A DNA stretch of 64,000 bases, from NCBI GenBank assembly GCA_903813345.2, contig CAIIXF020000007.1, positions 16,288,714 to 16,352,713 on the forward strand. Reading direction: 5' to 3'. Below the pieces are notes generated by a model that saw only the letters and a program-made list of their open reading frames with translations, was not told the DNA's origin and did not search any database. Shown here one piece after another: positions 3,401-46,600 of this stretch. The stretch is from Owenia fusiformis. Its lineage: Eukaryota; Annelida; Polychaeta; Sabellida; Oweniidae. The position numbers were made by a program, and so were the translations under genes. How positions within the stretch are numbered: position 1 is the first letter of the stretch; each line of letters starts with the position of its first letter.

Positions 3401-5568
3401 TCTAAACAATCAAAATATGGTAATTCTTTGAACATGTGTGTCTGCACAAGTTTCCCTGGCTTAACAGTGATATATGGGGTCATAATACATGTAATAACTA
3501 TCTATCAACAAAGAATAAAGTATTATACCACAATATGACATAATTAGACTTTTTGGGTCTTGAATTAGAATTTTCGTGAGTGTATGGGGTGATTTTGATG
3601 TGTCTTTACACTTTACATGATCGAAACATTATCATCCTTGCACAATGCACAGTACCAGCTTCATCAAAGAAATTATGAAACCGTTAGAGCCCTAGTTTCA
3701 ACGAAATATCTCGCAGCGCCTGAGCACATGAGAGCAATATTTTCACATGGAGTTGCGTACCCTTCTAATTGAAAGCCCATGGTCAAAGTTAGTGGCTTGT
3801 CATTACTGTGGCAGAATCAGAATTTATTTTAATTTTGAGAAACTGCTCTTAGTAGATCCTAACCTTGTTAAAAAATCGACGAGGCATTAACATGCAAAAT
3901 TTGACATTTGTATTTGACATTGAATGTGGAGCACCATCCACAAAAACGTTGGGGACTAACTTGTGATAGTGACATAATAAAAGCTTCCAAACACCCCATC
4001 ATAGATTTCAACAGGCCTGTAGCCAGGGGGGGGACAAAGATTATTTTAAATCATTCAGTTTTTCACTATTTTGAGCACTTTTCAAGTGATTTTAGGCCAC
4101 GTTGTAAAATGTGAACACCACTTGATTATTATCCCATCGAACGAAGTTCGGAGGGATAAAGGGAACGCCTCCGTCCGTCCGTCCGTCCGTCTGGGCAATA
4201 ACTCAAATACCGTTCACCCGATTTTGTTCATATTTTGTACACATATACCCTATGGGGGTAGAAGTTCTGCTCAAAAGCGGATTTTCAAAATGGCCGCTCA
4301 TTACAAAATGGCGGCCATTTTAGTGCCGAATTTACAGTAATTTAGGTGCAATATGTAAAACTGTAATAGCAATATGTTTTAGATGTAAAACAATTATATA
4401 GGACATTAATAAAGCTAGAAATGTAGATATTAAAGAAGCACATGGCAGCCATCTTGAAAAATGGCGGCCTTTACTCGTTATTATACGATTTTTGCTGTAA
4501 CTCGAAAAGTAGTGGAGCGATTTTGTTCATATTTGGTATGTGAATACTATAAACATTGCACACTGTCTAAAGACACTTTTGGTAGAAGGGGGCCACTTTA
4601 AAAAATGGCCGCCATTTTGAAAAATGGCCGCCATTTTAACCTATTTTACTATAACTCGAAAAGTAGTAAAGCGATTTTGTTCATATTTGGTATGTGAATA
4701 CTATAAACATGGCACACTGTCTAATGACACTTTTGGTAGAAGGCGGCCATTTTTCAAAATGGCCACCATTTTAACATATTTTACTATAACTTGAAAAGTA
4801 GTGGAGCGATTTTGGTCATATTTGGTATGTGAATACTAAAAGCATGACACACTGTCCTATGACACTTTTAGTAGAAGGTGGCCATTTTGAAAAAAATTTA
4901 GCAGTGTAGCGATTTTGTTCATATTTGGTATGTGAATACTATAAGTATGGCAAATGGTCTAATGACACTTTTTGTAGAAGGCGGCCATTTTGAAAAATGC
5001 CTGCCATTTTTGCTAAATACTTTGCTAAATACTTTGTTTGTAAAAATGCCATCCATGGCTGTTCGATGGGATTCGCTACGCTTTGGCGTTGCTGTTGTTC
5101 TGGTTTTGAAAAGAGAACCCCCTTGGCAAAAGCTGTCTATGGGGCCTGACACTAATTGCAAGTTATGGGTAATATATTTTAGAGCATCAGTGTAGCCTTC
5201 CACTTTGAAGACCTAAGCTAATGCACTTCTCCTTTTATAGACTATTATTCAAATATCAAACCAATTAAACTTCTGACTGTAAGTGGAACTTCCAAAGTTG
5301 GTTCACATCTGTTTGGAACACCCAACTGTATTCTTGACTAAAGGTCAAATTTAAAAACATGTTTATTCTTTTAGATCTGTTCATATAGGTCCTGAACACA
5401 ATATTATTCATGATGTTACGGGTCAAATGAGTGTTTCTTTGTGATAACTTCCTTTTTAATTTTAAATATATTTTTTTCTTTCAGATTATCAAAGAAGTCG
5501 AAAGAACACAGAATGATGAGACACCAGAAGAAATAACACAAGCAGAGTCACCTTGTATTATTTTGTAA
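400..5568 (+). CDS. Selenoprotein W / MIEN1 (Rdx12)-family thioredoxin-like protein, 5' partial
   Basis: Coding exons are 400-497, 2042-2118, 2872-2963 (alternative) and 5485-5568. The family consists of small thioredoxin-fold redox proteins with a C-x-x-U or C-x-x-C motif. Here the reading frame runs Gly-Lys-UGA-Gly-Tyr at 401-415, matching the CxxU-GY of selenoprotein W. A FEVTINDKLVFSK-type strand and a GGFP motif follow, as in MIEN1 and fish-type SelW2. The Cys before Gly is predicted from the missing exon (TG plus the T at 400). All junctions fit GT/AG and stay in phase, and a SECIS element lies in the 3' UTR. The ending CIIL is a CAAX box, as in human MIEN1 (CVIL), which suggests prenylation and membrane attachment. 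Sec combined with CAAX is notable because vertebrate MIEN1 has Cys in the redox motif. The exact orthologue within the family is uncertain. Confidence 0.85.
407..409 (+). other. In-frame UGA read as selenocysteine
   Basis: The UGA occupies the second redox position of the C-x-x-U motif of the SelW family and is followed by Gly-Tyr, as in selenoprotein W. The SECIS element at 8263-8328 supports recoding. Without recoding the protein would end after only a few residues. Confidence 0.8.
827..1218 (+). mobile_element. ATCCCATCGAAC-family element, short copy
   Basis: It begins ATCCCATCGAACGAA and ends with GTTCGATGTGATTTGC, an imperfect inverted match of the start, followed by a conserved GCTTTGGTGTTGCTGTTG end. 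The interior has the family phrases for an aaaatggccaccattttt block and a ttgttcatatttg block. No coding capacity was seen, so it is a non-autonomous element. Confidence 0.7.
1242..2000 (+). mobile_element. ATCCCATCGAAC-family element, diverged subfamily
   Basis: It starts ATCCCAACGAACGAAGTTC, carries a short CCGT run near 1280-1300, and ends GTTGGGATTTGCTACTCCG followed by ttgccattttctag. Internal subrepeats include the phrase gcctnnaaaattcaaaa twice (about 1650 and 1790). An inverted copy of the same subfamily lies at 24928-25622. Confidence 0.7.
2042..2118 (+). CDS. SelW-family exon, FEVTIN...GGFP core
   Basis: The acceptor is tgtttcag and the donor gtaagt; 77 nt, entered at phase 1 and leaving at phase 0. 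It encodes the central strands (SFEVTINDKLVFSK, then GGFPAKDA), closely matching the MIEN1/SelW2 core. The phase 0 end allows either of the two following exons (2872 or 5485) to be joined in frame. Confidence 0.88.
2119..2871 (+). other. Intron of SelW-family gene
   Basis: Unique AT-rich sequence. No repeat, RNA gene or exon was recognised. The open stretch at 2209-2517 has no family likeness and sits wholly inside the intron. Confidence 0.6.
2872..2963 (+). CDS. Alternative C-terminal exon without CAAX box
   Basis: The acceptor is ctgttatag and the donor gatgtaagt. It encodes LIAEVKRAQSGEEPQVITK, Thr, Arg, then stop TAA at 2935-2937. It aligns with the last exon (IIKEVERTQNDETPEEITQ...) but lacks the final SPCIIL, so its product cannot be prenylated. 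The donor lies 26 nt after the stop, close enough to be compatible with escape from nonsense-mediated decay, and would join the exon at 5485 as 3' UTR. An AATAAA overlaps the stop at 2937-2942. The exon is either a cassette or mutually exclusive with the CAAX exon. Confidence 0.75.
3105..3610 (+). repeat. Imperfect ~200 bp tandem repeat, three units
   Basis: Three units share the phrases actttgggtcat or equivalent, ttagaatttgagaatttt, gtgtagtggtgac and gtgatatattgggtcataat, beginning near 3115, 3325 and 3550. The copies are well diverged. Each unit also carries an aaagaataaag segment. Confidence 0.55.
3886..3985 (+). repeat. Dispersed repeat with GGCATTAACATGCAAA motif
   Basis: The phrases ggcattaacatgcaaaat and accatccacaaaaacgttgg recur at 37080-37195, and the first recurs at 35541-35645. 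The function is unknown; it is probably a degenerate transposon or SINE-like element. Confidence 0.5.
4012..4112 (+). mobile_element. Truncated CAGGCCYGTAGCCAGG MITE
   Basis: It starts CAGGCCTGTAGCCAGGGGG and continues with the internal phrase for catncagtttttcac, as in the complete copies at 43612 and 59859. The right end is missing, and an ATCCCATCGAAC-family element begins just downstream at 4131. Confidence 0.6.
4131..5108 (+). mobile_element. ATCCCATCGAAC-family element, full-length copy with internal tandem units
   Basis: It begins ATCCCATCGAACGAAGTTCG and ends GTTCGATGGGATTCGC plus GCTTTGGCGTTGCTGTTG, so the first 12 bases are inverted at the other end. A CCGT run is at 4170-4190. The interior has four ~150 bp units with ataactcgaaaagtagt, gcgattttgttcatatttgg and aaaatggccgccatttt. 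There is no transposase. It is a MITE-like element expanded by internal duplication. Confidence 0.75.
5485..5568 (+). CDS. C-terminal exon with CIIL CAAX box
   Basis: The acceptor is ctttcag; the exon starts at phase 0 and ends with TAA at 5566-5568. It encodes IIKEVERTQNDETPEEITQ, then AESPCIIL. This matches the end of MIEN1, where a C-terminal CAAX box directs prenylation; a Leu at the last position is generally read by geranylgeranyltransferase I. It is the sister of the exon at 2872. Confidence 0.88.
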   Translation: MIKEVERTQNDETPEEITQAESPCIIL

Positions 5569-6029
5569 AACATTCCTTGCAAATAGAACACCTCCCAAGA
5601 ATTATGGACTTTGATATACCTGAACCCCATAGAATTTGGACAATTATGAACAGCAACTAAAACTCAGAAGAATTTTTGAACTGATTTCAAACAAGATACC
5701 AGACTTTAATAATAGGCAGGCATGTAACTATAAACACTTAACAATGGGCAAACAACATGGGCAGACTGGAATATTCTCTCATGGTTTTTGTGGGATTCCC
5801 ATCTTCATGTGACGAGGACTTTTCTCAGGACTATATATTTTCACTTTCCAAAAGCTGCCATCTTTTGTTACTTTAAGAAATCAGGATACCATGATCTGTT
5901 TCATGATCTCCTTGGTTACAGGTACTAACACCTATATGTTTAGAAAAGCCTCAATTTAAGACAAGGCCTGATCCACAAGTTATTGCTAATTTTGAAAATA
6001 CTCTAGTATTCTGTTTGTGAACATAGTAG

Positions 6030-13635: not shown

Positions 13636-16600
13636 CTGGAACAAACAAATGATTGTTGTACAGCACACATAAGTTTAAATCATTTAAGAGCAAAACTCGA
13701 TGCTTTACAACTTTATCATATGCATCTATGTATGGATAAAGATTCAGAAAACTACTTAAGTAAGCAACATGTATAAAACTATTGCTACCAGCCTACCATG
13801 GTACATGTGATAATTTATATTTAGCATGAATTTTAGTTTTTCACGTTGCAATGCTTACCTCTCTGCAACACCATTCTTCTCTGGTTTGCCTGATTTTGTG
13901 TCAAGCAATTTCTTTTCTACTTCGTACTCTCTCATATCATCCACTTCCTTAACTTGACCAGTTGCCACTTTATACAGGAAGTTGACAATAAACTGAAAAA
14001 AACATCGCAACTTTTAATACAATTTCTGGGTGACTTAAACACATGGTTTGTCAACTGGAGGGATAGTGAGTAATTGAGTTTTGGACTTTCTCAAGAGCCC
14101 ACAATGTCACGCATGCTTATATCTACACCTGGACACCTACAGGAGCTTCATTTGGACATTCCATCTAAAAGAATATAGAATTTACAAATTCATAATTAGT
14201 CTACAAACATATGTATAGTAACCATGTGTGTTTCTCTTGAATTCAGAACTGTGAATCCAATCTATGAAATATTTTTTCAGACATTATCATTATACATTAC
14301 AGCCTTTAAAATTGATGTAAGTAATGTTGTTATAAATATAAATAATTGTCAACTAAACTAAAAGTCTAAAGTGCAAAAACAAATGCTCAAAGATTGATGC
14401 ATGTTAGTAATTTGACATAAATACAACTCCACATGACATAAGATAACAAATACAAAAAATCTAAATAGAATACAGAAACTCCGGAGATGAGCAAATCCCA
14501 CCGAACAAAATATATTTTATAAAATTTTGTCATTTTGGACATTACATGATAGAAATAATCAGGAAATAGAAGAGAAGTTCCGTCTCATCTGGAAAAATTT
14601 ACACCCGAGGTCATGAACATAGGAAAATAGTATATAAAATTTGGAACAAATCTGGTGCCTCAATGGTATTTATGTTATCTTAAGAACCATTAGCATATAA
14701 AATTTTAACCAAATCTGTCTATTGGTATTTGAGTCATCAATGATTATATTTTTAACAAAAAATGGTGCCTATTTTTAAAGTTCCTTCTCGAGCAGAAGTC
14801 CTACAACCATTTAATACTGGTATTTAAGTTACATTACATTTTTTTTATAAAAAATAATGGCCATTTTGAAATTCAGTGGACCATTTTGAAAATCTTCTCT
14901 TGAGAAGAGCCCCTATGTACATGGGTATCAACATATTAAATTTGGAACACAATCGGTCATCTGGTTTTTGAGTACTCAAAGATTACATTTTTATGAAAAA
15001 TGGTGGCCATCTTGAATTGAGCTGCCATATTGAAAGTTCCTTTTTGAGCAGAGGTCCTACACCCATAAGGCACAAACCTATAAGATTTGAACCAAATCTG
15101 TATTTGAGTATTATTGAGTAACTTAGTTATTGAGTAACTGGTATTTGAGTCATCGCCAGGACACACAGACAACGGACAGACAGCTGCCTCTATATCCATA
15201 TGAACTTCATTCGATGGGATAATAACAAACGGAGCACCTGGATAAATCAAGGCCAAGCTGAACATTTCAAGATGTGAACATGCAAACACTTTGGTACTAT
15301 GTGCATAAATATATGAAAACAAAACAATGTATAAGCAAGATGAATATCTATAAAAGAGAAAAACATTAATGTGAAGCACAAGGAAATGACAGTATTAGTA
15401 ACATGCAAAAAACGTGAACTATCAAATTATATAAATGAATGTCTTCATTGTACACATACACAACTTTTTCATTTTTAGTTTTATCACTCCCATTATAATG
15501 GGATACAATTTATTATTTGTCATAAAATGAGAAATAAAATTTGACATTTGTTAATTTCAAACTCCTTTGAGAAAACACCTTGGTCGGAATCAATAAAGAT
15601 TTTATGAATAAATGTATATGTAGATGTATTTCTAAAGATTATAATGCTTTAAGTAAAAGGAAGGGATTGTAGAGAACTTATTTACAGTATGTAAATATAA
15701 TTATTATATCGATCTTTTATTTAGTTGCTGTTTAAAGTCTAGAACTAGGAAAATAGCAATTCCACACAGTAGGAAATCCCACCAAATTAAATATGTTTTG
15801 GCAAATCATTCCTTGTATTGAACATTTCATGCTTCTTTACTTATTAAATAGAAATGGTGTCCTATTATAACAAAAGGCAAATACATGTATGTGCAAGGCA
15901 TTGTCATTTAAAGGTATCAATCTATGAAATGCTATGTCAAACTTTTGATGAGAATTGGCAATTAACCAAAAAACAATTTAATAAAAAGATTAGATTTTCA
16001 ATTTGTCCATTTTTACGGAGCAAAGGTCCCATTTCCCCGGAGCATCTGACTAAATTTTGAACCAAATCTGACAGATAATCAATTTGATAGATAAACAGCA
16101 TGAGAAATGGGGAGATGAATGAACGAACTAAACAGACAAGAGCTTCTCTATATCCCAACACGGTGGGATAATAAAGGTAAGTAGTCGGAAAACCATTGGA
16201 CATTTATGCACAAAGTTGTCAATATTCAAGCCAAGTTGAGTAACAAGATGAATCATTCCATCTTGCACATGGAGATGTGAGAATTAAATGATCACATGCA
16301 GTTGTATAATGCAAACCACAACAAACAAGTGTGACAAAATACAAGCAAATGCAAAACATTATTCATAAAAGAACACTGTTAAAAACACACAAAGCAAACA
16401 TGGTAAAAATACCAATGCTACAAAGCATATTTGTGGCTCATATTATCATATTAAATAAGCTTCATGTGTACCTTGTAATTTCATTTTCATTCAATTTCAG
16501 AGACCTTTCACTTAACATCGACATTGGGTTTAACATGTGATAGTGACCTTTACCCTAAATGTAGAAGATTTCATCATTCAGACAGAAATAGTTCAAAATG

Positions 16601-19600
16601 ACCTCGACATTTGACCTTTCGCTATATCTGTGACCTATATACAATCAATTTTTCTGACCTCAAACCTGTGTTACTTATTCACATGATTAATATGATAATC
16701 AACAGTCTTTCTTTCCCAAAATAATTCTTGACCTCAGTCTTTCATTCCCAAAAATCTTTCTTACTTCCACTGCATTTTTTACTCCCATCATCTTTCTTGC
16801 CCCCCCCCCCAGTCATTCTGAATCCAACATTCTATCTTCTCTCCACAGTCTTTTATACTTCCATAATCTTTCTGATTCACAATCTTTCTTACCCCCAATC
16901 AGTCTCTTACCCTTACAGTCCTCACCACCAGTCTTACCCCATGTCTCTCTTACACCCATAGTGTTTATTAATCCTGCTATCTTTCTTACAACCATAGTCT
17001 TTCTTGCCCCCAGTCTTTCTTACAGAGATTGTATATAATTTGCCACCACAACCTATGGTCCACCAAGCTACCACGCCATATACGGGCTGTTTTTTGATTT
17101 GGCCTCTAATTTATGTTGCATAATTATCGCCAGAAGTTATGCATCCCAGTAATTGCAATTGGGCCAATCGCATTTATCCAATCATGAATATCAATATCTA
17201 GTTTCAATAGTTATAGACAATGTGGATCTCAATACATGTCTAAGCAGGTAGGGGTGGCAAGTTATACAAAGCCCTTCTGTAACCAGTCTTTCTGACCTCC
17301 ATGATTTTTCTTATCCCACAGCCTTGTCAACATAGTCTTTCTTACCCCAGTCATTCTTACCCCATCTCCTTGGGCTATCCCAACATGCATAGATCTACCT
17401 CCCCCCTCTGGGTTCCACAAGTGCATTCATACAATAAGTGGCAATGTCTGTATTATTGTATTTGTAGCTATCTTTAACCAAGAGATCACTTTCAGTATTT
17501 GGGGGGTTTGTTACCAAGCTTATTTTGGGTGATGTTACGCTGAATGACTAAATACGGTGAATGTTTGTTAAAACATGTGACAAAGATTTTCAAAAAACCC
17601 TAAATACAAGTTAATATCTCATTGTAGTTATTATAGTACCAATCAATGATTTTAAATTTTGTTTTTTGGATCAATTAATACAAACAATACCACTTTAAGT
17701 AATGTCTAAAACAATCCCATTCAATAAGAATTTCAAGATTGTTAGACGAGGCCATTATAATAAGCATTATAAAATCTAGTCTACGATGGTATAACAGCGC
17801 ACACTCATATGTATTTGCAACCTTTCTACGATAAACATACAACATCACAATCTCCCATTTTTCAGGTCCTGTAAGAAGTCTTTATCAACAGCCTCTCTTA
17901 CCATAACACAATGGTAAAGTAGTAATCAGAAGAAGGGGGACTGGGGGAGGGGGAAGGGGTTAAATTGACTAGTTTCATACTAAAAGGAATACTTTTTTAG
18001 CCTTTTGGGTTTTTGAAAAAGTATCATTTTTTCCCGAAATTCCAAAATACTAGTAATAGGAATGGGGAACCTCCCCCTCCCCTTCTTTCAAAGACAGAAC
18101 CTAAGAGGGGGTGTGCATAGACTTAATACATTACTATAATATATGGAGATATCATCATAACGAAACATATGTGTATGTGTGGTTAGATGCGAGGAATTAA
18201 AAATATAAATAAATGACTATATGATGGGGCCATGGCCATGTCATTACTTTAATTCGGCTTTCCCTAGGTTTCTTTTTTGCGACTTCATCCTCTACATCGA
18301 TCTCTCTGACATCATCCACCTCACTCATCTGTCCTCTTGCTATTTTGTAGAGGAATCTCACAATAAACTATAACAGACCAATGTTAGACATGCATACCCT
18401 AGCTTATTTATTCAACTTACATTGATTGGACTTCTCCAATGTTTCACAGGCTTTATTCCCTGTGGCAGTCTGTGGCAGTAAACATGTGGTTTTCTGACAA
18501 ATCCACCCTGGGTTCATTATCTGAATTCTAGCCAATATTAAAATTGATAACTCTCAGGGGTTTGATTTCTGAGAACACAAAATAAACAAATAATAGGAAC
18601 AAGGAGAATTATTGGAACTATAATTGAAACAGTTGAAAAATTCCCTACTAGAACTATAGGCAATTTTAATAATGGCTAGTGCATTCTCAACCTGGGTAGA
18701 CATCTATCATCCCTTTTTGGAGTGGATTGGGGGATACATGTAATTTGGGTTTCATTTAAGGTCAAACACACATGTTAAACATTCTGTTATGATGGCCACC
18801 TGGACATACACCCCAATGACGGCGAAAACTGAGAAGAGCAAGGATATGAGAAAATATATTTGGGGAAGCATTATGTCAAAGGCTGGGATGGCTTAACCCA
18901 AAGGTAGCAATGTAATCCTGCTGGCATTTTCTACCTATAAATATTTTAGTAATACAAAATAACTCGTGTCCAGAACTCCCATCCAATGGCCAAATAACAT
19001 ATTAGTACTTTATTCAATCACAATGACATGGTCACTTGTCAGCAAATGTTGTGGCCACCATGCTATTCTAGCTAATCTCCTGTTTTGTTTTGAAGATAGG
19101 TTTTCCCATGATTCCCTTTACTTAACCTAGAATATAAGACATGCATTACAGAGTATATAATAAATACATTATATGTCAGAAATATTTAAAAAGTCATACT
19201 TTAATAATGATTTACGACAATTCTACTAGAGTAATTACTATTTGAATCAAATAATGATACTTATTTGTTAAGGATTTATTTTTATATATGATTTATATGC
19301 CTTTAGCCTTATAATATGTACTATATGACAGACTGAATTATTACTACAATAACATCTTAGTATAACAGGCATATTAATAGGAGCATATTAATATATTTTA
19401 ATTTACATACAGTAAAATATGAAAACATGAACTACTCCCATCATATGGTTGATAACAAATAATTCATTATAACTTTTGTCCAGTCAATAACTCAAATACC
19501 AGCTGTCATATTTGCTTCAGTTTTCATTACATAATAGTCAGATTGTGTTCTAATTTTCTTCATTTAGTTATCAATATGTAAGTATGATGGGAATAGAGCA

Positions 19601-25600: not shown

Positions 25601-28600
25601 CCCTACTGAACTTCGTTGGGATAAGAGTTGGGATAGAGCAAGTAAAAGTAAATGGAACAAGTAAAAGTAAATAGAGCAAGTAAAAGTAAATGGAACAAGT
25701 AAAAGTAAATAGAGCAAGTAAAAGTAAATAAAGCAAGTAAAAGTAAATAGAGCAAGTAAAAGCAGAATGAGTATGCATCTATTGTGCAAGAGTAAGCACC
25801 TTAAACAAATCTTTTTGGTCATCAATAAATCAGTCATAAACATTGATAGAGAATGTAAGTGCGAGCAACAATATGGACAGCATAGGTAATAAAGTATATG
25901 CATATAAAGAGATCATATACTTACAGGGTGGCACAAAAATGCAACTCTCATAATTTGGAATAACTTTTTTAATTATGGTAAACTTCAGAGTTTCTTTTGT
26001 GTAGATACTGGAGCAAGCTGTTGTGAATGATTTTAGATGAAATCATGCCTAAACAGACAGTGTTATCCCTCTAAAGTAGCTGCAATGTAAGTACATAGCT
26101 GTTTGCTCCGGTGAACACCTTATCTATCAAGATGGGTCTTTCACAATAGACAAAGTTATTCCAAAGTTAGAGGGTTGTATTTTTGGGTCACCCTGTATCT
26201 ATAAAGCAGAAGCTAACTGGACCACAATTACCAATAATCATCAACTTAAAAGCAAATGACTTCTATTTTGAAGACAACATCAAATATGGTCAATAACATA
26301 AAGAAGGCAAATGAAAGTCCGAACAAAGGAAATCTTATTAATACTTATTTTCAAAAACATCTACATTTTAATATAGTAATCTATCTAAATGTATTCTGAC
26401 AAATAATGCTGAATGCTATAGACACAAATCCACTCAACACTGTACATGTATTCTATTTGAATCCATAAAGCCATTATGACGTTATTCAGTTTTCTCAAAC
26501 ACCATGTAAATGCTAAACATATAAGCTCGGAAGCAAAAAACACACACACAACCATTGCATATTGGAACTTTAAGATTTCTATTTGAGATAAAAAGACTTC
26601 AACTTTGTTAAACAGCGATGAATGTTCGGATTCCATCCCTCTCAAGATTCCTTATATATTTTAGATAATATATTTAATCCCATGATAACGCATAGTTGAT
26701 AATGAGAAAATGGTTACACCCTTGTGGCCCTATTAAGATCAAACACCTTCCTAGTGTGAGTGTAATAACAATCACCAAAAAAATAAGTAAAATTAAATGG
26801 GTAATAGAATTCAAGAAAAACATAAATCAAATATAATCAATATTGAGGAAAGCATGCTTTCAGGGCAAAAAGCATATATTTACTAAGCAATATATTAGTA
26901 CCATATTAGTAACCTTTGTGAAAGCAAATTTGAAAAGGTTATAAACCATAAATCCCTAATCTTAGTTGTAGCAGATATGTTAAAAAGCTAAGCGAGGAAT
27001 GCGCATAGGTTGGTGTGAGTTTCATAATTGTCCTGAACCAAAAGGCACATCAACAATACAACAACAGAGCATGGCAGATTCGAGTTATAGCATGCATTCA
27101 GTCCTTATATGGCCCTAATGACTATATATGGTAGGACGCTTAATGTATTCAAACTTACCAAGAACCAATAAACATTGAGCACTTGGAGTATCCACAATAA
27201 TGAATTAAAGAAAATGTAGAATGGCAGGGGCCCAACACTGGCATTTATCGATTTATCTGCAAGGGCTGCCGATAACAGGATTTTCAGCGGGAACCAGTAA
27301 AGCCTAAACACATACCTGTGACCGAAAGAAAAATCATATATTTTAGCTTCAATTCTAAAAATGTACATGCTTTAGTAATGGCCTGTTGCAAAGATGGACT
27401 CCCTGCAGTAAAATGTGGCAAATAAGCAATGACTCGGTCAAATGATTACTCAATAGGGAGTTAAAATATCACACACATCCTGTCATAGAGAAGTCAGTAT
27501 GGCAAGAATTCCTGTCATAAAGAGGTCATTTTGACATGAACATCTTGTCATATGAGCTTTCCTTATATCAACAATGACAAGAGAATCTGTCAAAATATAG
27601 ATGTGCTGAAATTTTGCTGAAATACAAGTCCTTATGACAAAAATCCTGCAAAAATACGGAAATCTTCATGACAAAAAATCTTGTCATACAAATGCTACCA
27701 TGACAGCGAATAAATTTTCTCACAAGACAGTACTTGTGGGAATGTTAAAAGCCCATTGTCTCAAAACACTGGAAATCCACGTTATGAATTCCAAAGCTGA
27801 ATAAGCAAGAAATATTTTGTTAGTTTTTATTTTTAGTATGGGCTATAATTGTTGGTGCTGAATTGATAAGAGTGTTACTGCCAGATGTTTTACTCAAGGA
27901 TGTCTTTGCTACAGGTCAAAATTGAAGCATCATTACAGGCAAACTAAACATGTAAGCAAGTGACAATCAACATCAGCCACCAAACTCTGATGCAATGGTG
28001 CATGCTTCTCTAATGTCTTTAAATATGAAACCCATACACCATAGCTATCATACTTAACTAGAGCCAAAGTACCAAAGTGTGTGAGCTGATGAATTGTCAA
28101 TACATATATCACAATGCATATGACATCATAATGACATCACAGTCAGACTTACCGTGAACCAATAGATATTGAGTATTTGAAGTACCCACAGTAGGACATT
28201 GAAGAAGAAAAGGAATGGAATTCTTCCATTGGGTGCGTTAGTGATAACTCCCAGGCTGGCAGAGTGAAGAATCTTCAGAGGGAACCAATAGAGACGGAAC
28301 ACGTACCTACAATACTTATGATATTAACAGCACATCATTGCATACAGACTCAACATTAGGGAGCTTCGGGTACCTACTGAAACTTTATAGACTGAGGCTG
28401 GTAGTAAAACAACCACATCTAAACATTAAGTGTTAGTTATCAAATTATAATGAGGGCAGTGTCTTTTTTGCCATCTGAGCAAGACAAACTACTATGCCTC
28501 AGTCTAATAGAGTCCAAAACCTAGTAAGCACCCTTCATGGACCATAGTTGACTGTTAATGTGTCACATTCTGTTTTCAACTATATTCCTTTATCATGGGG

Positions 28601-31600
28601 GACCATTACAACTTTGGAGGAGACTTAACCTTTTGATTAGAATTCCCCCTGAAACATCTGGCCACAAATATCTTGTTTCTGACTACAATGTTATAACAGT
28701 ATTCGAACTGCCAGACAAATGATACTTTTTGTGTCCAAATATTTTCTTATTCAATATTCAGTCGTGGATGGTTTTTGAAAATGGTTAGGTCCTCTCTCGG
28801 TATAATGGTTTGGCCTCTATCCAAACATATATAATAATGATGGCTCAGAAATCCAGCTGTGTGTTTCTGAATGTGAAATAACTCAGCAAGCAAAGAGTCT
28901 GTTCAATGTAAGACTGTAGATTACAGCCTCCCATATTGAAGCATTGATGAACTAATGCCTTTGTTATCACAGCTAAATGAGTGAACCATAAAAGGGAGTG
29001 GGTCAATTTCATAGTACACTGCAGCAAACTGAGCCACAACTATCTGAAACAAGATATAGAAATATCAAACAGGTGTATTGTCAATGCCTGATCAAGAGCA
29101 TAATTTGTAATACCCTGCGCGCAGAGTCTAGTTAAACTACACTCTGCCTAGTAGAGACCATATTACAGTTTAGTAACCCCGCCCCCACGACGGGTACTGG
29201 TGACTGTTTGGGTAAATTACTTTTGACCTACTCGCTGACCTTCTACCAATCAGCGAGCTCGAAGAAACATACGCCAAATGTGTTCTAATTAAATATGCGC
29301 ATGTCATTGGTCAATTTCGGGCTCAACGATGACGTCAGAAGGAATGACCATATAAAGAACTTCGGTCAAATTTGGCCGACGAACACTGATTGGTGCGGTG
29401 AGTTCAAAGGTTTATTTTAGTTTGAAAGAGTGAAGATGAAGCTCTCTTTTACGAAGTGAAGTCAAACGAATGCAAAGGGTAAATTTGTAAATAAGTTCAC
29501 CAAGTTTTCTATCAAACTAAATGCCTTTTTTACTAACAAGAATGCAACACTGTAAATAAGACCGAACGTAACACAATTGATTGCATGTGTTTAAAAGACC
29601 TCTCTGATATGTTGGCTTGAAAATATGATCATTTCAAAACATATAAATTAATTTAGAAAAACAATTGTTCAGTGAGACCTTTTTAAGTCAGATTTAAAAG
29701 TTCAAGTCACTGGAAAAGTCTGGGATTCTTACTTATACAATATTTATCAGGTGCTTCATGTGAAAGCACTCACATCAAAGATTAAGCACTGCCATCAATA
29801 ACCTTGCATTGACACCAAGTAATATGACATCATATGACATTATACATTAAAATCTGATAAACATTGACATTAATATGATCAGACATTGACATATTCCATT
29901 TATATTGTCATAGAGAATCTCTGTTTCCATAGAAACCCATCAGTATAGGTTAGAAATCTGTAAATATTAATTACCATAAATGTGCAGCATTTGATCTGAA
30001 ATGATACTCATACTATTAAGCTAATTGATTAATTGTAGTGGAAAACATAGACAAATATCTTCAAATGACAGAAATAAAACAGAATGATGAGATACTTTAT
30101 TATATCATTCTTATATAATCAATATTATATGCATATATGTGCTGTTCTATTAAATACACATGCCAATGTTTTAATTATAGCATCAATTCAACTTTTGAAT
30201 CACTTCTGATGTTTATTGTACTTTGATTGCTATTGGCTTTATGACTCCTTTTCTTTGATAGTAACAACTTGTGTAGTTGAAGATATTTGTTCATGTTTCT
30301 TTTTTAATTCAAAACTATTGAACAACTATTAAAGCTACTCAGCCATAATACACTAAACATGTGCAACAACAGTTAATTCATGTCTTGCATCAAATCTCTG
30401 TTCAGCTCAACAATAGAGCCATTAATAAAATGGCACCTGAGAGTCAGATCTTGAAGTAAAAACTAAAGTAGAAATGAGTGAAAATAGATAGGTTTTGCAC
30501 AACGGGTTATAACTAAAATGTGTCTGCAACCGCATTTCATTATAATTGAACTGCTAGGCATGGTGAATGCGTTACAGATTTTAGATACATTGAGCTCAAA
30601 ACATTGTGCGAAATCTCTCTATTGTAACAGATTAAAAGACATTGACATGTGGTTAACACCCTTAATTGCATAAAAGTGACAACAATCCGAGTCTATATTA
30701 AAATTTTAAGAGAGGACTTGGGAATATTAAATGCGTCTAGAATGCCATTTCATCAACAGAGCTTTGGTGCAAGACAGTGTTTTATTAACATACCAGGTGC
30801 CAGCGAAAAACAGGAATCCTATAGTGGTCAGGTGGTCATTCAACTTGTGTATTTTTCCACCCCTCGTCTTTAGGTAGACGTTGCACTTGGTGAACTCGAG
30901 GCAGATGTCTGTGATGTCATGAACAAACAGAACCAGGACGCCTATCTTGTGGAACCTGAAGACAAAAAACAGGAGTTATTAGAATGAAATTTATATTATT
31001 ATCAGATCTCTCTTTTTATTTATTTATTTATGATTAAATGCATGTGTGATGTTTACGAACAAAAGCATCAAGATTTTATGAAAAAGAAGAGAATAGAATA
31101 TGTATAACATCATACATCCCCTTACTTTCCCGAAGGATATATGTGATGTCATCTGTACGCTCGCTCGTGCAGATATCATATCCATTCGTGGATAAAAATC
31201 ATATCACTCATAAATCATAGGATATCCTCTATTTACATAATAGCATATTACATGTAAAACAATGTATAAGAATTCAGATCAGGTAATTCACAGTTCATGT
31301 ATTGCTGAATCCTTTCTCAAACACTTAGAATACAATACACAAAAACCAAAACCTAAGAATCTGTTTTGAGAAATAAATCAAGTAGAGATTTTTTCTTTAA
31401 AAAACAATAAATAATGAGTTCTAGTGTTACTATCGCAGATGGTTTTTCATTTCACAACATTGAGAAGTTAGACAGGCAGTAAACAGAACAATTGCACTAA
31501 AACCTTAAAAATCGCTTATCTCTGTTATAGTGTAAAGTCTTATTCTACAGTGATTGAACTCCATAGAGGACACTGTGCTAAATATATATAAGTAATACTG

Positions 31601-34600
31601 TTCAAGGCTATACTTGGATTAAATTCTTTAGAATGAATAATCTTCCTCAAATAATTGACTCAAAAATTTATTTGAACATGCTAATAATATGATTGTTCAT
31701 AAAAAATATCAACCTGATCCCATCCCCATATATGTATATCTTCAATTGACACTAGATCCCATAACCGGACATAAACCCTAACTAACTAAAAAATATGATT
31801 TAAAACTACACCTTGCATTCTCCAGGGAGCTAAGAATTTTATTTAGCGTTTCAAGATCCTGTAAAGTTCTAAACAACATGGAACTTGTTGAAATGTTCCA
31901 GTTCTAAGGTACCAAAGAGATCCTGTTCTAATTTACAAGTATATAAGCTGTAAATAATTTGTTTTGATTTTTGACTGCATATTCTGATTGAGTATATACT
32001 CAATAAAATTTTTATCTCAAAATAAAGACTATGAGGTTAAGTTATCAAAAAATAAGATAGCCAGCGTTCAAGCTATAAATGAAAATCAGGAAAGATGAAG
32101 AGTAAACATCCTGGTTCCAGTGGCCCAGATAATCTCAAACAGAAGTGTAAGATGATTATGGTGATCAACAGATGTTATTTGATGTTAACTGTTAACCATT
32201 GTCTTGCTAAGAGACCTTGCTCTTCAGGACTTTGCACTCACCTTGGATTGAAGGATTGATGAGTGAAGTCTCATTTTACTATGTTTTATTTCAAGCAAGA
32301 TTTGTATATGACAAAGATTAACTTTGAAATTGCTGTTGCTAGTATTAGGAAATAATAAATAATAAAAAAAATAAATAAATAAAAAAAGATAAATTGGTCT
32401 AAAGAATGTAAGTCTATAGATATTGCAAAGTGAAATAAGAAACTTTGAGACATTTCTTGACATCCTCTAAGTCTTGCATTAGCGCTACCCCCATATCTAT
32501 TTCACCTCCTTTTAGCCATCAATCAAATAAGGTGACTGGGTTATCTATCACATGCTTTGAAAATATTTAAGAGCATATAAATAGATAGTACAAATGTATA
32601 TATTGCAATGTGAATATTGTTAGCAATATCAGCTCAAATATCCAGGCCAAAACATCAGCTCAAAGTTCCAGGTTAGGATAGGTCCAAAAAATCTTAAAAA
32701 TCTTTTTTAAAACCCTATTCTTTTTTAAAATCATCTTTTTCTTAAAGCCCTACTCTATCTAAAACCATTATCTTCTTAAAACCTTTATCTTTTTAAAAGC
32801 CTAACTTTGGAGTTCCCAGGAGATTATGATACAAGTTGGAGCAACTGAAACCTTATGAATCAAGATATAACCATCTCTAGTTCAACACCCCCATCCTCAA
32901 TCACCACTCAAGTATAAAAAATATAGCAGGCTATATAGTGTGAGGTAACAATGAAAGATCACGCCATCATGTAGAGAGCACTGTCTGCACTTAACAAACA
33001 CATTCAAGAAAATCCATACTTTATAAGGAATGTATGCAATGTTGCATGCTGTTCAAAGAGTCATGTATGCTCTTCTATTGATAATTCTTTATTTCAGCAA
33101 AGGTGAATAAACTAGTCTGCTAATATTGATCTCTTTTGAATGTGAGAGAAGTCTCCTACTTGGTAACCCCCCCCCATACCTTTCATAATCCTTTCCCTAG
33201 TATGGCTCAGTCTTTACCCTCTAGTAGGTTAACTGCCCATAAAAATGCTACTTAGCCAAAACAGTTTCGTTTTGCTCCTTTGAAAGAGAGATTAACCTTT
33301 GGACCTCTCTATCTACTTCACCAACACAACATAACTTGTTAAGAGGTGTGTAGGTTGGAGGGGGCTTACAAGGGCTTGTAGCAAGACTATTATGTACTAG
33401 ACTCTAGTACTAATAACTCAACTTGTTATGAGGTGTGTAGGTGGGAGGGGGCTTACAAGAGCTTGTAGCAAGACTATTATGTACTAGACTCTAGTACTAA
33501 CAACACAACTTGTTAAGAGGTGTGTAGGTGGGAGGGGGCTTACAAGGGCTTGTAGCAAGACTATTATGTACTAGACTCTAGTACTAATAACTCAACTTGT
33601 TATGAGGTGTGTAGGTGGGAGGGGGCTTACAAGAGCTTGTAGCAAGACTATTATGTACTAGACTCTAGTACTAACAACACAACTTGTTAAGAGGTGTGTA
33701 GGTGGGAGGGGGCTTACAAGGGCTTGTAGCAAGACTATTATGTACTAGACTCTAGTACTAATAACTCAACTTGTTATGAGGTGTGTAGATGGGAGGGGGC
33801 TTAGAAGAGCTTGTAGCAAGACTATTATGTACTAGACTCTAGTACTAACAACACAACTTGTTAAGAGGTGTGTAGGTGGGAGGGGACTTACAAGGGCTTG
33901 TAGCAAGACTATTATGTACTAGACTCTAGTACTAACAACACAACTTGTTATGAGGTGTGTAGGTGGGAGGGGGCTTATAAGGGCTTGTAGCAAGACTATT
34001 ATGTACTAGACTCTAGTACCATCAGGTAATATAATATACAGTGACTGATACAGAAGAACCATGATGTAAAATTATTACCACCTTGCCGGGCCAGTTCTAG
34101 GGGTTTTAGTGCTATTTTAGAAGGCATTCATTTTACTATATCGACCTGAGCAATATGTGACGTCATAGTGGTGGTCAAGAATGCATTTAACGACCGGTCG
34201 AGAATGAATTTAACGACTGGCAATTTTCCCCGGGAAATTAGATATCGTTCAGTGCGTAAGATTTTCTTGCTGTTTCAGTCCTGGTCATTAACGGTGGTAG
34301 TAATACTAATAAACGTCATTTCACTATATTGCCCTTCGAAATGCCGTTATTGTACTATTGGTTAGATGACCAATTTTCCATACTGTATACTATATGATAG
34401 TTGTTGCTGAAGTTGTTGCATGGGTTAAAGATGATAACATTCAAGGCTAACAACCTTAGGCGGTCATATAAGGTTTAGGTATATATAAGTTTATATCTTG
34501 TCAATATTAAATCAGAGTGCGTTATCATTAAATATGTATGAAGAACATGATGTTATTATCATTAGCACTAGGTTATTGTTTTTTAACACCCTAATATTGA

Positions 34601-37600: not shown

Positions 37601-40600
37601 GAAATCCTGAATTCCACAATATATCCTGCGAGCATACATATGTATGCAAGGAGGAAATAATAAACAAAGAATTATCTAATTGTTCCTTCATTTTGTTGCA
37701 GTATGTTAGAGATGTGGGGGGGTGGGTGTCACTCACTATCTATGAGTTACTTTTCCATGTAATATTTGGGTAAAGCAATGACGATGAATGTCTCAATTAA
37801 TACATCAATGATATTGTCAGTAAATATACCCTTAGCTCTGGAACAAGAGGCAAACCAAAGATACCAAGAATGAGTGCTTGAAAATGTGTGGTTGAAACTA
37901 AAGAAGGATGCTGACTGTTATAATCTGAAGACAAATCACAGGTACAAATCTTATAGGAAAATGAACAGTCAGCAATACAGCTGAACGCACATCACAATGA
38001 AATATCCCAAATTCAGATTACACCTTTCATATATTGTGCCCTCCTCATTGGTAGAATCTTATGGGACTATGTTTTTGAGTGAAAAAACTTTTATTTGAAT
38101 ATAAGAGATACTAACATGATCCCTGAATAAAGTACAATCTGATATAAATGGGAACATCCTAGTCTGTAACAAGACTAGATAATGCATTAGTGTTAATCAG
38201 TGACTAAACACCCATTGTCTGTATGACTCACTCATTTAACTCATGATGATCTAAAGCATCACAATCCTCACAATACAGTTATAGGTTTGGCTAATGCAAC
38301 AAAATTACATTTAGAAACTGTCTCCCAGAACTGAAACAACTTGGTGCTGCAGAAAATTCTGTTAATGCAGAATTCTGCTCAACTAAAAATCTTTTTGCAT
38401 CAAGTCATATATTTGAAAATGTAAAATTGGGACAGTCTGAACAGTTTTAGACATTTCATAGTCAGGATTTGTAAAACTATTTGAAATAAACCAAAAATAA
38501 AATTCTTGGGAAAATGCTGTTTAAACTAACATTCATCAGGATAGCATAATAATATAATGTAATATGCTTGAGGATCTAATTTTCTTCCAGAATGAGTAAG
38601 CTAAATGTGAGTCCTGGCCTGATGAATGATTTGCTGGAAGCTGATAGTATCAGATACTCATCAGAGTCTTCAATTAGTTGTTCATATTACAAGCTGCAGA
38701 ATAGAAACATGTGCTCAGCCTGAAAAGACTGCAGATGATCTGGTTTATTATGTCTGGTGAGTGATCTTAAAAAAAAATGGAAGCATCTGGGGACTACTGG
38801 GTGGATTTGAGTACACGTGCACCCAGTCAGAATTTGAAGATCACTGTGCCTCCATTTGAAAATATATTGCCCCCATTTGAAAATGTATTCCATTAGCACG
38901 TTGAGACTTTAGAGGGGAATAGGCTGGAGATATCTGCTCTTATAATCACTGGCCATATTTCTACATGTCCTAATTTACCAAAGCAACAAAAATTTAATCA
39001 TCTCTCCTCCTCAGAGGCTAGAATTTTGCACATAGCTTCTGGATTTCAGGGTCGTTGAATATTGGTCTGGTATTTACAGAAGTAAAAATAGTCACTTGTA
39101 GATATTAATAAACTTGTTCTGATGTATATAACTGTCTAGTCTATACTCCTCACAAGACAAAACAACAGATTTTCAACACCTTACACATGTATGAGATCCT
39201 TCTCTTATTCACAACTAAACAATTCGTTATAAGTAAATCCACAAAGGTGAAAATCTAGTCCTGCATCTATACTCTGATCCCCTTCTATTTCAAGTTATTT
39301 ACTCTGGAGGTGAAATGTGTAGCATTAACTTGTGTTTAAAATCAATTAGCATAAAAAAACATAACAAAAAAGGTTTCAGATGGAACTTCTGATATTCATC
39401 ACCTGAGTTAACAGGGTGTACAAAGAGGGTTTCACATTCATTACTTTGTACAAAGAGGGTTTCACATTCATTACTTCGTACAAAGAGGGTTTCACATTCA
39501 TTACTTTGTACAAAGAGGGTTTCACGTTCATTATTACTTTGTACAAAGAGGGTTTCACGTTCATTATTTTGTACAAAGAGGGTTTCACGTTCATTACTTT
39601 GTACAAAGAGGGTTTCACGTTCATTACTTATCCCTCATTTTGTGTCAACGAATATATGTTCATATTCAGTAGAGTTTGTGTAAGCAGAACATGATGTGAT
39701 AACTCAAATATTCAGCTGGGAGGGGGATTTCAGATTACAGAAGACATAACGTTATAATGGGTATAAGGACTTAAGAAAATGTACAGGTTTTACTGAACTA
39801 TATTTTCTTACCTCGCCGCATATGAGAATCCTATAAGAGACAGAGTAAGGAAATGGTGGAACATCATCACTATGGAATCTTTCCTCCATTGGTCCATGTA
39901 GAGTGTTCCATATACAGAGTGGAGGTAGAAACTACACTGTACCATGTACAAGGCATACATATCCCATGGTACAAACATGCCAGGTGACCAGTCTGAAAAT
40001 AAGAACAGAGGATTTTAGTACAGTATACAGGGCGTTCATAAAGTTCTTGCAAAAGTCCTCTAAGATTTTTGCATCTCAGTCAATCTGGCTGAAATTTTCA
40101 CTCAGTATACCTACACTATTCATTCATTGAGATCCTAAGTTATAATTAATGGGTCCTTGACGAAAAAAAGTTATGGTTGCTATCGTCATATCAATCAGGG
40201 GTAGGTGGAGCAGGCAAAAAAGGATCTGTTCTGTTTGAATGTTCAAAATGTTTTTAACTTGTCCTATTTACTTTAATAACAGTATCTCAAGAGTATAGGT
40301 GTTCAAAATAGTGTCCATCGTGGTCTATACACCTCTGCTGTCTTACTTACCATTCCTCAAATAGATGGGGGAACCATTAGGAAAATCTGATTGCGATTGA
40401 CATTTGTATGGATGGCTTTCATCTACGTCATCTGATCCTCACTGGATTTCGTTCTTGGACGGTCTGATCTAGCGTTGTCCTTACCATTTGTTCTACCATC
40501 AGTAAATGTCTTAGTCCATTTTGTAAATGCTTCATTTGGACATAGCCTACTTCCAAAACACCTTATGAATGTCATCAAGTGTTTGTTTTCTTAGATTTCC

Positions 40601-43600: not shown

Positions 43601-46600
43601 GGAGATCATTTCCGTAGCCAGGGGGTTTCGAACCCCCCATCCCTTTGACCAAAGATTCATTCAAAATCATGCAGTTTTTCACAATTTTGGTCATTTTTGA
43701 GCCAAAGATGTGAAAAGTGAACCCTCTGAAATTTTTTAAAAAGTGACCCCCTTGGCAAATCCTGGCTACGGGCCTGGAGATTCTTAAGACCACCCTGTTT
43801 ACACAGGCTGGTATCAAAAGATTTGTCCGCTGTGACGGAGCATGCTATTTTTCATAAAAACACTAAGAATGCTTCACGATTTATTTTTTAACTCATATGT
43901 TTCGTTATATCAAAGATAATTACTTACTCCATGCAATGGATATATCATTTGCGTGTAACCTTCACTTCTGTTCGAAGTCCAATAACGCTAGGAGTAAAAT
44001 CTATTGAAAACGGTGCCAGAGTATCAAACTCTAAAATGTACCATTTCTTTTTTAACTTTTTAATGGCATGATATAGTGATACGATAATATTAACATATGT
44101 TTTCACCATAAGTCTGAATTTATTAATGAGATATTAATGCATTGGGTCTTTTTAATGTTTTTATAAAAAATAATATTAATATTTTTTGTCCGCTGTGACG
44201 GAGCATTTTCACAGTTCACATTTGCAACTGCTCCGTCACAGCGGACAAAAAAAATCAAACATTATTTTTTTATAAAAGAATTAAAAAGACCAAATACATC
44301 AACATCTCATTTATACCTTCATAGTTATGCTGAAACCATGTGTAAATATTATCGTGTCACTATATCGTGCCATTAGAAACTTAAACAAGAAATGGTACAT
44401 TTTGAAGTATGATACTCCGGCGCCATTTTCAATAGATTTTCTTCCCAGCGTAATTAAACTTTAAACAGAAGTGAAAGTTACCCGCAAATGAAATATCCAT
44501 TGCATGCAGTAAGTAATTTTGTATGGTATAACGAAACATATGAGTTAAAAAATAAATCGTGAAGTATTCTTAGTGTTTTTATGAAAAATAGCATGCTCCG
44601 TCACAGCGGACAAATATTTCGATACTAGCCTGTGGTTTATAGAGGTTCATTATTATGCTGTGTGACACCAAATATAACTTTGAGGGATTATTCAACATTC
44701 AAACTGTTCAGTACAAACATTGTTTACTACTTATGACATGTGAGGTTAAATGCTTGTCTTTATGATCAATGGTTTTTTTTTCATTTCAAGTGGGTGCAAA
44801 TGGATTTTGAGGTGGGTGCTAATGGATTCTCAGGTGGGTGCAAGCCTGTTTTCAAATTCTCAGGAAGTGTAATGCTGGGAAGATCACTGCATCTGACCAG
44901 TGAGTATTTAAAAGTATTTTTGAAAAAGTTAAAAAACCTTAATTAGGACTAAGGATAGGATCTAATCTGGATTCTACAGCTTCTACTGTCTCTTAAGGGA
45001 GAGCAAAAGCCTAAAGTGAGACTGATAAATCTGAATTTTAAGTATCAACATTTATAGGACATATTTACTGCCATCTAATTAGCTCTTTTGTATATAAGGG
45101 GGTCCTTTAAAGTATATTTTTAGATTTTTTATCCAGTAAAATTAGACTATTTATGACATCTTAAGAGGTTAATAGCTTGTTAAACTGGTATGGGATGGTG
45201 TTCCTAATTATCCACCCTGTTAAACATTAAGTGAGAACAAGTCAGTCAATGAAAATATATTATGTATAGTTTACTCTAAAAGTGGGGTAAAGTAGAATGA
45301 AGTATAAAGTCATGAATGTGATGTTTGACATAAAAAATGTCACAATTTATGTGCAGATGCCAAAATCATGTGTCATGACATGATTGAGTATTTTGATTTA
45401 GGCATGGGACTTAATATAGAAGTAGAATTCTCCTTCATCAAGACTTCTTCAATCAAAATATTTAAATCAAAGGATTTTAAAAATGATATGTTTCTGTCAT
45501 TCACCATTTATCCCAGTTATGTCAGTTTGTTATATTTATAATAATAATCTTGAAAAACTTGAAATGCTTACCTTTCCAGAGATCCAGAGGCCTCTCAAAG
45601 AATGTATATTTGTCTTCTTTTATGAAGAGCATATATGTACTTAAGGTCCATGTACAAACATAGAAGATAAGTTTGAAAGCAGACTCTGGGAATTTCTTCT
45701 GGTTGAGCATACTCATCTGTGTATATTTGCCTAAAGGCTGCAAGTAGAAATGAGAAACATTTGAAATATATTTTAAAAGTAAAATTATTTGAATTGTTGT
45801 GGAGGACTTCAACTTCGCCACACATGTTTCATTACACAGACAGGAGGACAGACAGACAGAGGGTGATTTACAATAGCTCACACCATGTGATATCCATAGT
45901 TTGATTTTGCTTAAAGGCTTGGACACTCGCTTAAAATCAAAGATTTTCTGTAAAACTCTGGTGAAAAATCTCTGATGATGAACTATAAAATGGGTTGCCT
46001 TTATCATAACGAGCACGAGAGAAATATACTGCACCTCGCCTCAAGTGATATTGATACATTCATTATGGTAACAAGATGACAATATAGAGTAGTCTAGTCA
46101 GGAGAAGATCAATACAAATATTCAAAGAATCTGAGCATATTGATGGGAGATTGCATTCTAGTTTTTATGCACCTATCATTGTTTGACTAATTCAAAACAA
46201 AACTCCAAATATGCAGTACTTCCTTGTGATTCAAGGAATATTTCACAATAACAAAATAATTACATGGTCACAGAAAATGTCATTACCTTATCAACAACAA
46301 ACTGCATGTTGTTGAATATTAAGCTTGTATACATAAATCAGAGTCAAAATAGAATCATTTTAAGGGAGATTGTTAGTGATGCAACTCCATATATCTGAAT
46401 CTGAATACCTCTAATTGTTTTGTTTGGAGGTCTCCCAGTTCACACCACATGGCAACAGGACAGAAAAATTAGCATGTATATTCTTTCTACTCATGGTGTC
46501 CAGGAGAGAGCACTACAGAGCTCAGGAGAGAGCACTACAGAGCTCAGGAGAGTGCACTACAGAGCTCAGGAGAGTGCACTACAGAGCTCAGGAGAGTGCA

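Follow-up and report, generated by a model that had tools for sequence, protein, structure and literature searches.

The minus strand of the window, by which we mean the whole 64,000-nucleotide stretch of DNA that was analysed (contig C7:16288714-16352713 in an Owenia fusiformis assembly of 498 Mb and 525 contigs), carries a gene for a ceramide synthase of the CerS1 type whose fifth exon occurs twice in tandem. That the two copies, called 5a and 5b, have the anatomy of alternative exons is, in our view, highly probable. That they offer two forms of a segment made up of the last part of TM6, the TM6-TM7 loop and TM7, between which splicing would choose, so that acyl-CoA length would differ, is a likely reading, held with appreciable reservation. 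Here, the expression of both forms, their exclusivity in RNA and the switch in acyl chain are what we infer from the DNA.

The gene is modelled with seven exon positions (Table 1), like human CERS1, which is reported to have seven exons (PMC6315813, excerpt). The internal exon boundaries are AG and GT throughout. A tblastn search with human CERS1 matched exons 2 to 6b collinearly, with E values running from 9e-22 (exon 3) to 0.010 (exon 6a); the same query gave no match to exon 7 and no significant one to exon 1. All three of the three isoforms assembled pass the Pfam TLC cut-off (PF03798, 24.6 bits). These are 5a-6b-7 (371 residues, 142.5 bits), 5b-6b-7 (372 residues, 143.9 bits), and 5a joined to a read-through form of 6a (356 residues, 143.7 bits).

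Table 1. Features of the predicted ceramide synthase gene of the window, of the exon pair in the second ceramide synthase gene, and of the coq2 exon pair. Positions without a prefix are those of the window.
Feature	Position	Strand	Remarks
Exon 1, with start codon	58951..59187	-	open frame, donor, frame continuity; CERS1 similarity not significant (E 23)
Exon 2	45572..45737	-	CERS1 tblastn match
Exon 3, catalytic HH, MMFHHFLT	39812..39992	-	CERS1 tblastn match, E 9e-22
Exon 4, with HDITD; end phase 2, ahead of the exon pair	30794..30955	-	
Predicted alternative exon 5a (154 nt), comprising the last part of TM6, the loop HSASLGVITNAPNGRIPF and TM7	28153..28306	-	Pfam TLC 28.2 bits alone
Intron separating 5a from 5b, 837 nt	27316..28152	-	
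Predicted alternative exon 5b (157 nt), comprising the last part of TM6, the loop LSAALADKSINASVGPLPF and TM7	27159..27315	-	Pfam TLC 28.4 bits alone
Exon 6a candidate, DVREIDVE	18248..18367	-	weak donor gtaatg, or read-through to stop at ~18197
Exon 6b, DMREYEVE	13859..13992	-	
Exon 7, coding part with stop codon	13554..13635	-	
Second-gene exon A, 157 nt, ILHSTMFEGHVIVDMIPAYYVFN...	C7:5298111-5297955	-	follows FPFK
Second-gene exon B, 157 nt, LIYTVGIESPMIIGMYNAMYLYV...	C7:5293592-5293436	-	follows FPFK
coq2 exon, 131 nt, LTLNWG...IYSHQ (e, Leu)	1890-2020 of the piece C2:21736700-21743500	+	AG before, GT after
coq2 exon, 134 nt, MTFNWG...IYAHQ (a, Phe)	5520-5653 of the piece C2:21736700-21743500	+	AG before, GT after

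Residues 1-346 of the 5b isoform align with the chains of human CerS6 and of yeast LAG1/LAC1. In the alignment with human CerS6, the gene keeps HHFLT in exon 3, HDITD in exon 4, and YWF in both 5a and 5b. The key residues of CerS5 are given as H220, H221, D248, D251 and W327, the last of these being listed as critical for activity (PMC10122649, excerpt). With the offset of 9 that follows from His220 in CerS5 and His211 in CerS6, W327 corresponds to W318 of CerS6, and the Trp is present in 5a, in 5b, and in exons A and B of the second gene discussed below. The gene model contains no Hox-like exon; the Hox-like domain is absent from mammalian CerS1 (PMC8789539, excerpt). The family named in an earlier note on this DNA, ceramide synthase, thus stands on the TLC scores and on the retained HH, HDxxD and TM7 Trp. 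The type is read as CerS1, with the best match, the missing Hox-like domain and the seven exons all pointing to it.

The two copies of exon 5 can be exchanged for one another without cost to the reading frame. Each takes over after the second base of a codon and finishes on a codon boundary. The acceptors end in agtattgtag (5a) and ttcggtcacag (5b), and both exons are followed by the same donor, gtaagt. Either exon alone keeps the frame and leads to a complete protein with a nearly equal TLC score; each exon, scored by itself, is already above the Pfam cut-off. Joining 5a to 5b, however, gives T-V-C-V-stop and a product that ends after 303 residues, and leaving out both brings a stop after 251 residues (with 6a) or 268 residues (with 6b). 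Such a break of frame on joint inclusion or skipping is, of course, not required of every mutually exclusive pair.

The earlier note had described these neighbours as mutually exclusive exons, and most of its description is borne out: homologous exons at the positions it gave, with equal phases and with lengths that are both 3n+1. The consensus splice sites are intact as well, and the frame breaks when both or neither are used. Both exons begin with YVFRLYWFPLKIL, identical at 13 of 13 residues, both contain the loops that it quoted, and the stop falls within four codons of the 5a-5b joint, as it had said. Its statement that nearly all residues of the loop differ was too strong, as eight of the 18 aligned loop residues are identical.

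The mechanism that we propose is as follows. Exon 4 would be joined to one of the pair, 5a or 5b, and the chosen exon would be joined in turn to exon 6. Products containing both exons or neither would be shifted in frame, would stop early, and would be discarded. The exclusivity would most likely come from regulated choice of splice sites rather than from simple steric blocking, because the spacer is 837 nt long. Steric exclusion calls for a very short intron, and the spacers here are 837 nt in the window gene and 4362 nt in the second gene; it is, of course, one possible mechanism of exclusivity and not a requirement. RNA pairing was considered as a means of enforcing the choice. A scan of positions 26900-31000, made with no shuffled control, returned two pairs of inverted repeats (30043-30064 with 30277-30298, and 28326-28344 with 30128-30146). 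Neither links one shared site to both exons, and this candidate was set aside.

What the exchange might do follows from where the exon lies. Aligned with human CerS6, exon 5 spans the final part of TM6, the loop that follows it, and TM7. In the CerS6 structure, TM4, TM5 and TM7 form the walls of a tunnel that holds the acyl chain on His211. The TM6-TM7 loop seals this tunnel on the ER side, and the authors tie the loop to chain-length preference (PMC11919693). The specificity sequence of CerS5 is given as 11 residues, E299-S309, between TM6 and TM7 (PMC10122649, excerpt). The piece that is exchanged here matches the CerS6 loop and overlies the CerS5 sequence, which agrees with the earlier proposal that the swap falls on the loop that selects the acyl chain. 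Exchanging the 11 residues between CerS2 and CerS5 allowed CerS5 to use very long chains and left CerS2 inactive; this is the chimera work of Tidhar and others (2018), taken from a paper that cites it (PMC7876150, excerpt). No test of the TM6-TM7 loop in a CerS1 was found among the open-licence papers that made up the literature covered.

Thus, the catalytic residues are kept while the predicted tunnel cap changes between 5a and 5b. With catalysis in common and the cap different, the two enzymes should therefore prefer acyl-CoAs of different lengths.

The differences between 5a and 5b are not spread evenly. They are concentrated in the loop, where 11 of 19 columns differ (the gap being counted as one), against seven of 33 elsewhere (Fisher p 0.014); pN is 0.41 in the loop and 0.22 in the helix that follows. 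The loop of exon 5b also contains the sequon N-A-S (27245-27237, minus strand) at a place where 5a has N-A-P. Should the loop lie on the lumenal side of the ER, glycosylation of the two isoforms could differ. The loop has been called cytosolic (PMC8789539, excerpt), contrary to the later structure.

A second gene tells a similar story. When the assembly was searched with Pfam and with protein queries, one additional ceramide synthase gene came to light, at about C7:5288.6-5315.4 kb and of the CerS2-6 type, with a Hox-like exon (ERWFRYRR) and a C-terminus that reads DDRSSSE. This gene also has a pair of exons, A and B, which share their phases and cover the same TM6-TM7 loop, with introns at positions other than those of 5a and 5b. 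Use of the swap becomes more likely for the presence of this similar pair. Either A or B alone leads in frame to VQKDDRSSSE, while A joined to B meets a stop after seven codons. Skipping both shifts the frame and meets no stop within the 62 codons translated past the junction, and for this reason the predicted frame control is weaker in the second gene than in the window gene.

From residue 283 of human CerS6 onward, exons A and B can both be aligned to it with no gap. In the 11-residue stretch, A reads EGHVIVDMIPA, B reads ESPMIIGMYNA, and CerS6 reads ESWEIVGPYPS. Over the whole exon pS is 0.73 and pN 0.31, and none of 20,000 neutral simulations reached the observed identity. Constraint is clear over the last 31 codons (pN 0.16, again none of 20,000). 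The first 21 codons show no clear constraint (pN 0.53, with 1591 of 20,000 simulations reaching the observed identity), and because of this the loop of exon B could be drifting. A and B differ more often over the first 20 positions (15 of 20) than over the rest (10 of 32; p 0.004). The strict 11-residue stretch is not significantly enriched in differences (7 of 11 against 18 of 41; p 0.32).

The two pairs probably arose by separate duplications. This is favoured because the exon edges differ at both ends, being TW/YVF...YWF/FIV in the window gene and FPFK/ILH...VTGK/ in the second. Sequence identity from column 13 on is 23 of 40 for 5a with 5b, 15 of 38 for A with B, and 17 of 38 for A with 5a. 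An independent origin is not upheld by identity alone, since A is no closer to B than to 5a; what speaks for separate duplications is the positions of the introns and the identity of 5a with 5b. An older, shared duplication followed by shifts of the introns is a possible alternative.

Taken at its widest, the proposal is that splicing, and not a larger number of genes, enlarges the set of ceramide synthases in this animal. The exon for the cap would have been duplicated in a gene of the CerS1 type and, probably in a separate event, in a gene of the CerS2-6 type, to give at least four enzymes with different chain preferences and a ceramide length set by splicing. This we hold tentatively, as possible and somewhat short of likely. 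The earlier note had contrasted one gene here with the separate genes that vertebrates use. One gene does hold an exon pair; the contrast is incomplete, as two ceramide synthase genes were found, each with a pair. The search of the assembly with PF03798 gave eight matches among the 15 candidates scored, of which three belong to the window gene, two to the second gene and three lie elsewhere. The last (C1:7729985, C12:33741785 and C12:2764882) were not counted as ceramide synthases, because a tblastn comparison of pieces from these loci with human CERS1, human CERS6 or a fragment from the window gave nothing below E 0.80. Two further hits in protein searches (E 5.9 and 7.06) were taken as chance. 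A missing match in the assembly does not, of course, prove that further ceramide synthases are absent.

The exon pair might be used and yet tune some property other than chain length, such as stability, glycosylation, the choice of partner, or the response to inhibitors or regulators. This is unlikely, but it is not to be neglected. The sequon that distinguishes 5b from 5a would fit it, as would the seven of 20 residues that change in TM7, in the C-terminal part of the exon, and as would the exon 6 candidates, which differ in the region of a motif (DxRSDxE) reported to act in the formation of dimers (PMC8789539, excerpt). Against this, divergence within the exon is greatest in the piece that corresponds to the lid of the CerS6 acyl tunnel, and the second gene has its pair at the same place.

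It is improbable that the gene makes a single enzyme because one member of the pair, as a relic or a decoy, is seldom or never used. The pair is, of course, known from the DNA of a single genome. But the record of substitution in the two exons argues otherwise. The two share 34 of 51 aligned residues in spite of 28.1 synonymous differences on 34.7 synonymous sites; pS is 0.81, near saturation, while pN is 0.24. In the first 13 codons there are 9.0 synonymous differences on 8.7 sites and not one change of residue. Against a crude neutral null, in which the same number of base changes was made at random, none of 20,000 simulations retained as many residues, and 81% acquired a stop. With synonymous change so close to saturation and the protein conserved, both exons are, on this comparison, old and constrained by selection on the protein. 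Frame and splice sites have been kept as well, and each exon alone reaches the Pfam cut-off. That the second exon serves as a poison exon, lowering the dose of enzyme through the early stop that follows joint inclusion (here, the product of 303 residues), is very improbable indeed, since a poison exon needs no conserved protein and both copies are constrained and each gives a full enzyme.

We return, then, to a choice between two caps for the acyl tunnel. Exchanging the gate for a substrate by exchanging an exon is a known trick. A close likeness is the switch between the a and e exons of coq-2, which are mutually exclusive in helminths, annelids and molluscs and differ by Phe-to-Leu and Ala-to-Ser (PMC7434440). 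There too, which substrate a membrane enzyme takes depends on the exon that is used. The differences are that the enzyme is a polyprenyltransferase changed in its core at two invariant residues, and that transcripts and metabolites provide the evidence (PMC7434440). This system also served as a positive control. Applied to the coq2 gene of the same genome (C2:21736700-21743500, plus strand), the self-comparison recovered one exon pair, the published a/e pair with both of its differences, and it therefore recovers a pair already known. The coq2 pair suggests that Owenia fusiformis can make rhodoquinone, and the animal probably comes from a lineage that does.

In ACSL1 and ACSL6, mutually exclusive exons swap the fatty-acid gate domain in two paralogous genes for a lipid enzyme; the enzyme is a different one, and the key change proposed there is a single aromatic residue, compared with a loop and a helix here (PMC1543647, excerpt). 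Muscle myosin heavy chain likewise uses exon choice in one gene in place of what is elsewhere a gene family, this being a motor protein with several exon clusters (PMC3912159 and PMC2257972, excerpts). The vertebrate enzymes CerS1-CerS6 belong to the same protein family, and their differences in specificity lie in the same TM6-TM7 segment (PMC11919693; PMC10122649, excerpt). In vertebrates, however, the variety comes from separate genes; in the present case a single gene would supply it through its choice of exon.

Variants reported for mammalian CerS1, CerS5 and CerS6 are C-terminal (PMC8789539, excerpt), and one of CERS2 comes from skipping of exon 8 (PMC7876150, excerpt); these are not loop swaps. 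No loop-swapping exon pair in a ceramide synthase was found in the open-licence literature, which covers few subscription papers, so that a report elsewhere is possible; PMC8659336 has ceramide synthase in a reference only. Searches for relatives elsewhere, in viral_contigs and genome_contigs, returned 13 and 115 stretches that fitted a pattern, respectively, with none confirmed in either.

If the proposal is correct, nature has run the loop-swap experiment within single genes, with the rest of the enzyme kept the same. Paired cDNAs would then be clean reagents for asking whether the TM6-TM7 segment alone sets the length of the acyl chain, in the CerS1 branch as well. The chain length of ceramide, which shapes membranes and signalling, would be under the direct control of splicing. 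The similar pair in the second gene would mark the TM6-TM7 segment as a favoured site for the evolution of substrate choice.

Exon 6 proved to be more complicated than had been supposed. A downstream exon exists, as the earlier note had it; what was taken to be a single exon is represented by two homologous candidates, 6a and 6b. Of their first 27 residues 18 are identical, with pS 0.58 and pN 0.23, and four of 20,000 neutral simulations did as well. In the region of the DxRSDxE motif, which is described at the C-terminus of ceramide synthases (PMC8789539, excerpt), both candidates keep the D and the R and not the S-D. No donor of exon 6a fits the phase of exon 7, and 6a was therefore not upheld as a simple partner of 6b; joined to exon 7 regardless, it gives 347 residues with a foreign tail. 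Joining 6a to 6b leaves the frame open (411 residues), but the helix would then be repeated. Exon 6a may instead be an alternative last exon, and the choices at exons 5 and 6 make four combinations possible on paper.

The introns of the gene contain tandem repeats. In intron 1, a long tandem array lies at about 49644-51351; each of the three frames of the minus strand stays open over long distances in it, with units that read KFPPSLESYT, HKVPSFLRII and NQTQSSLLPW. Two more short arrays lie in intron 3, at 33316-34005 and 39379-39627.
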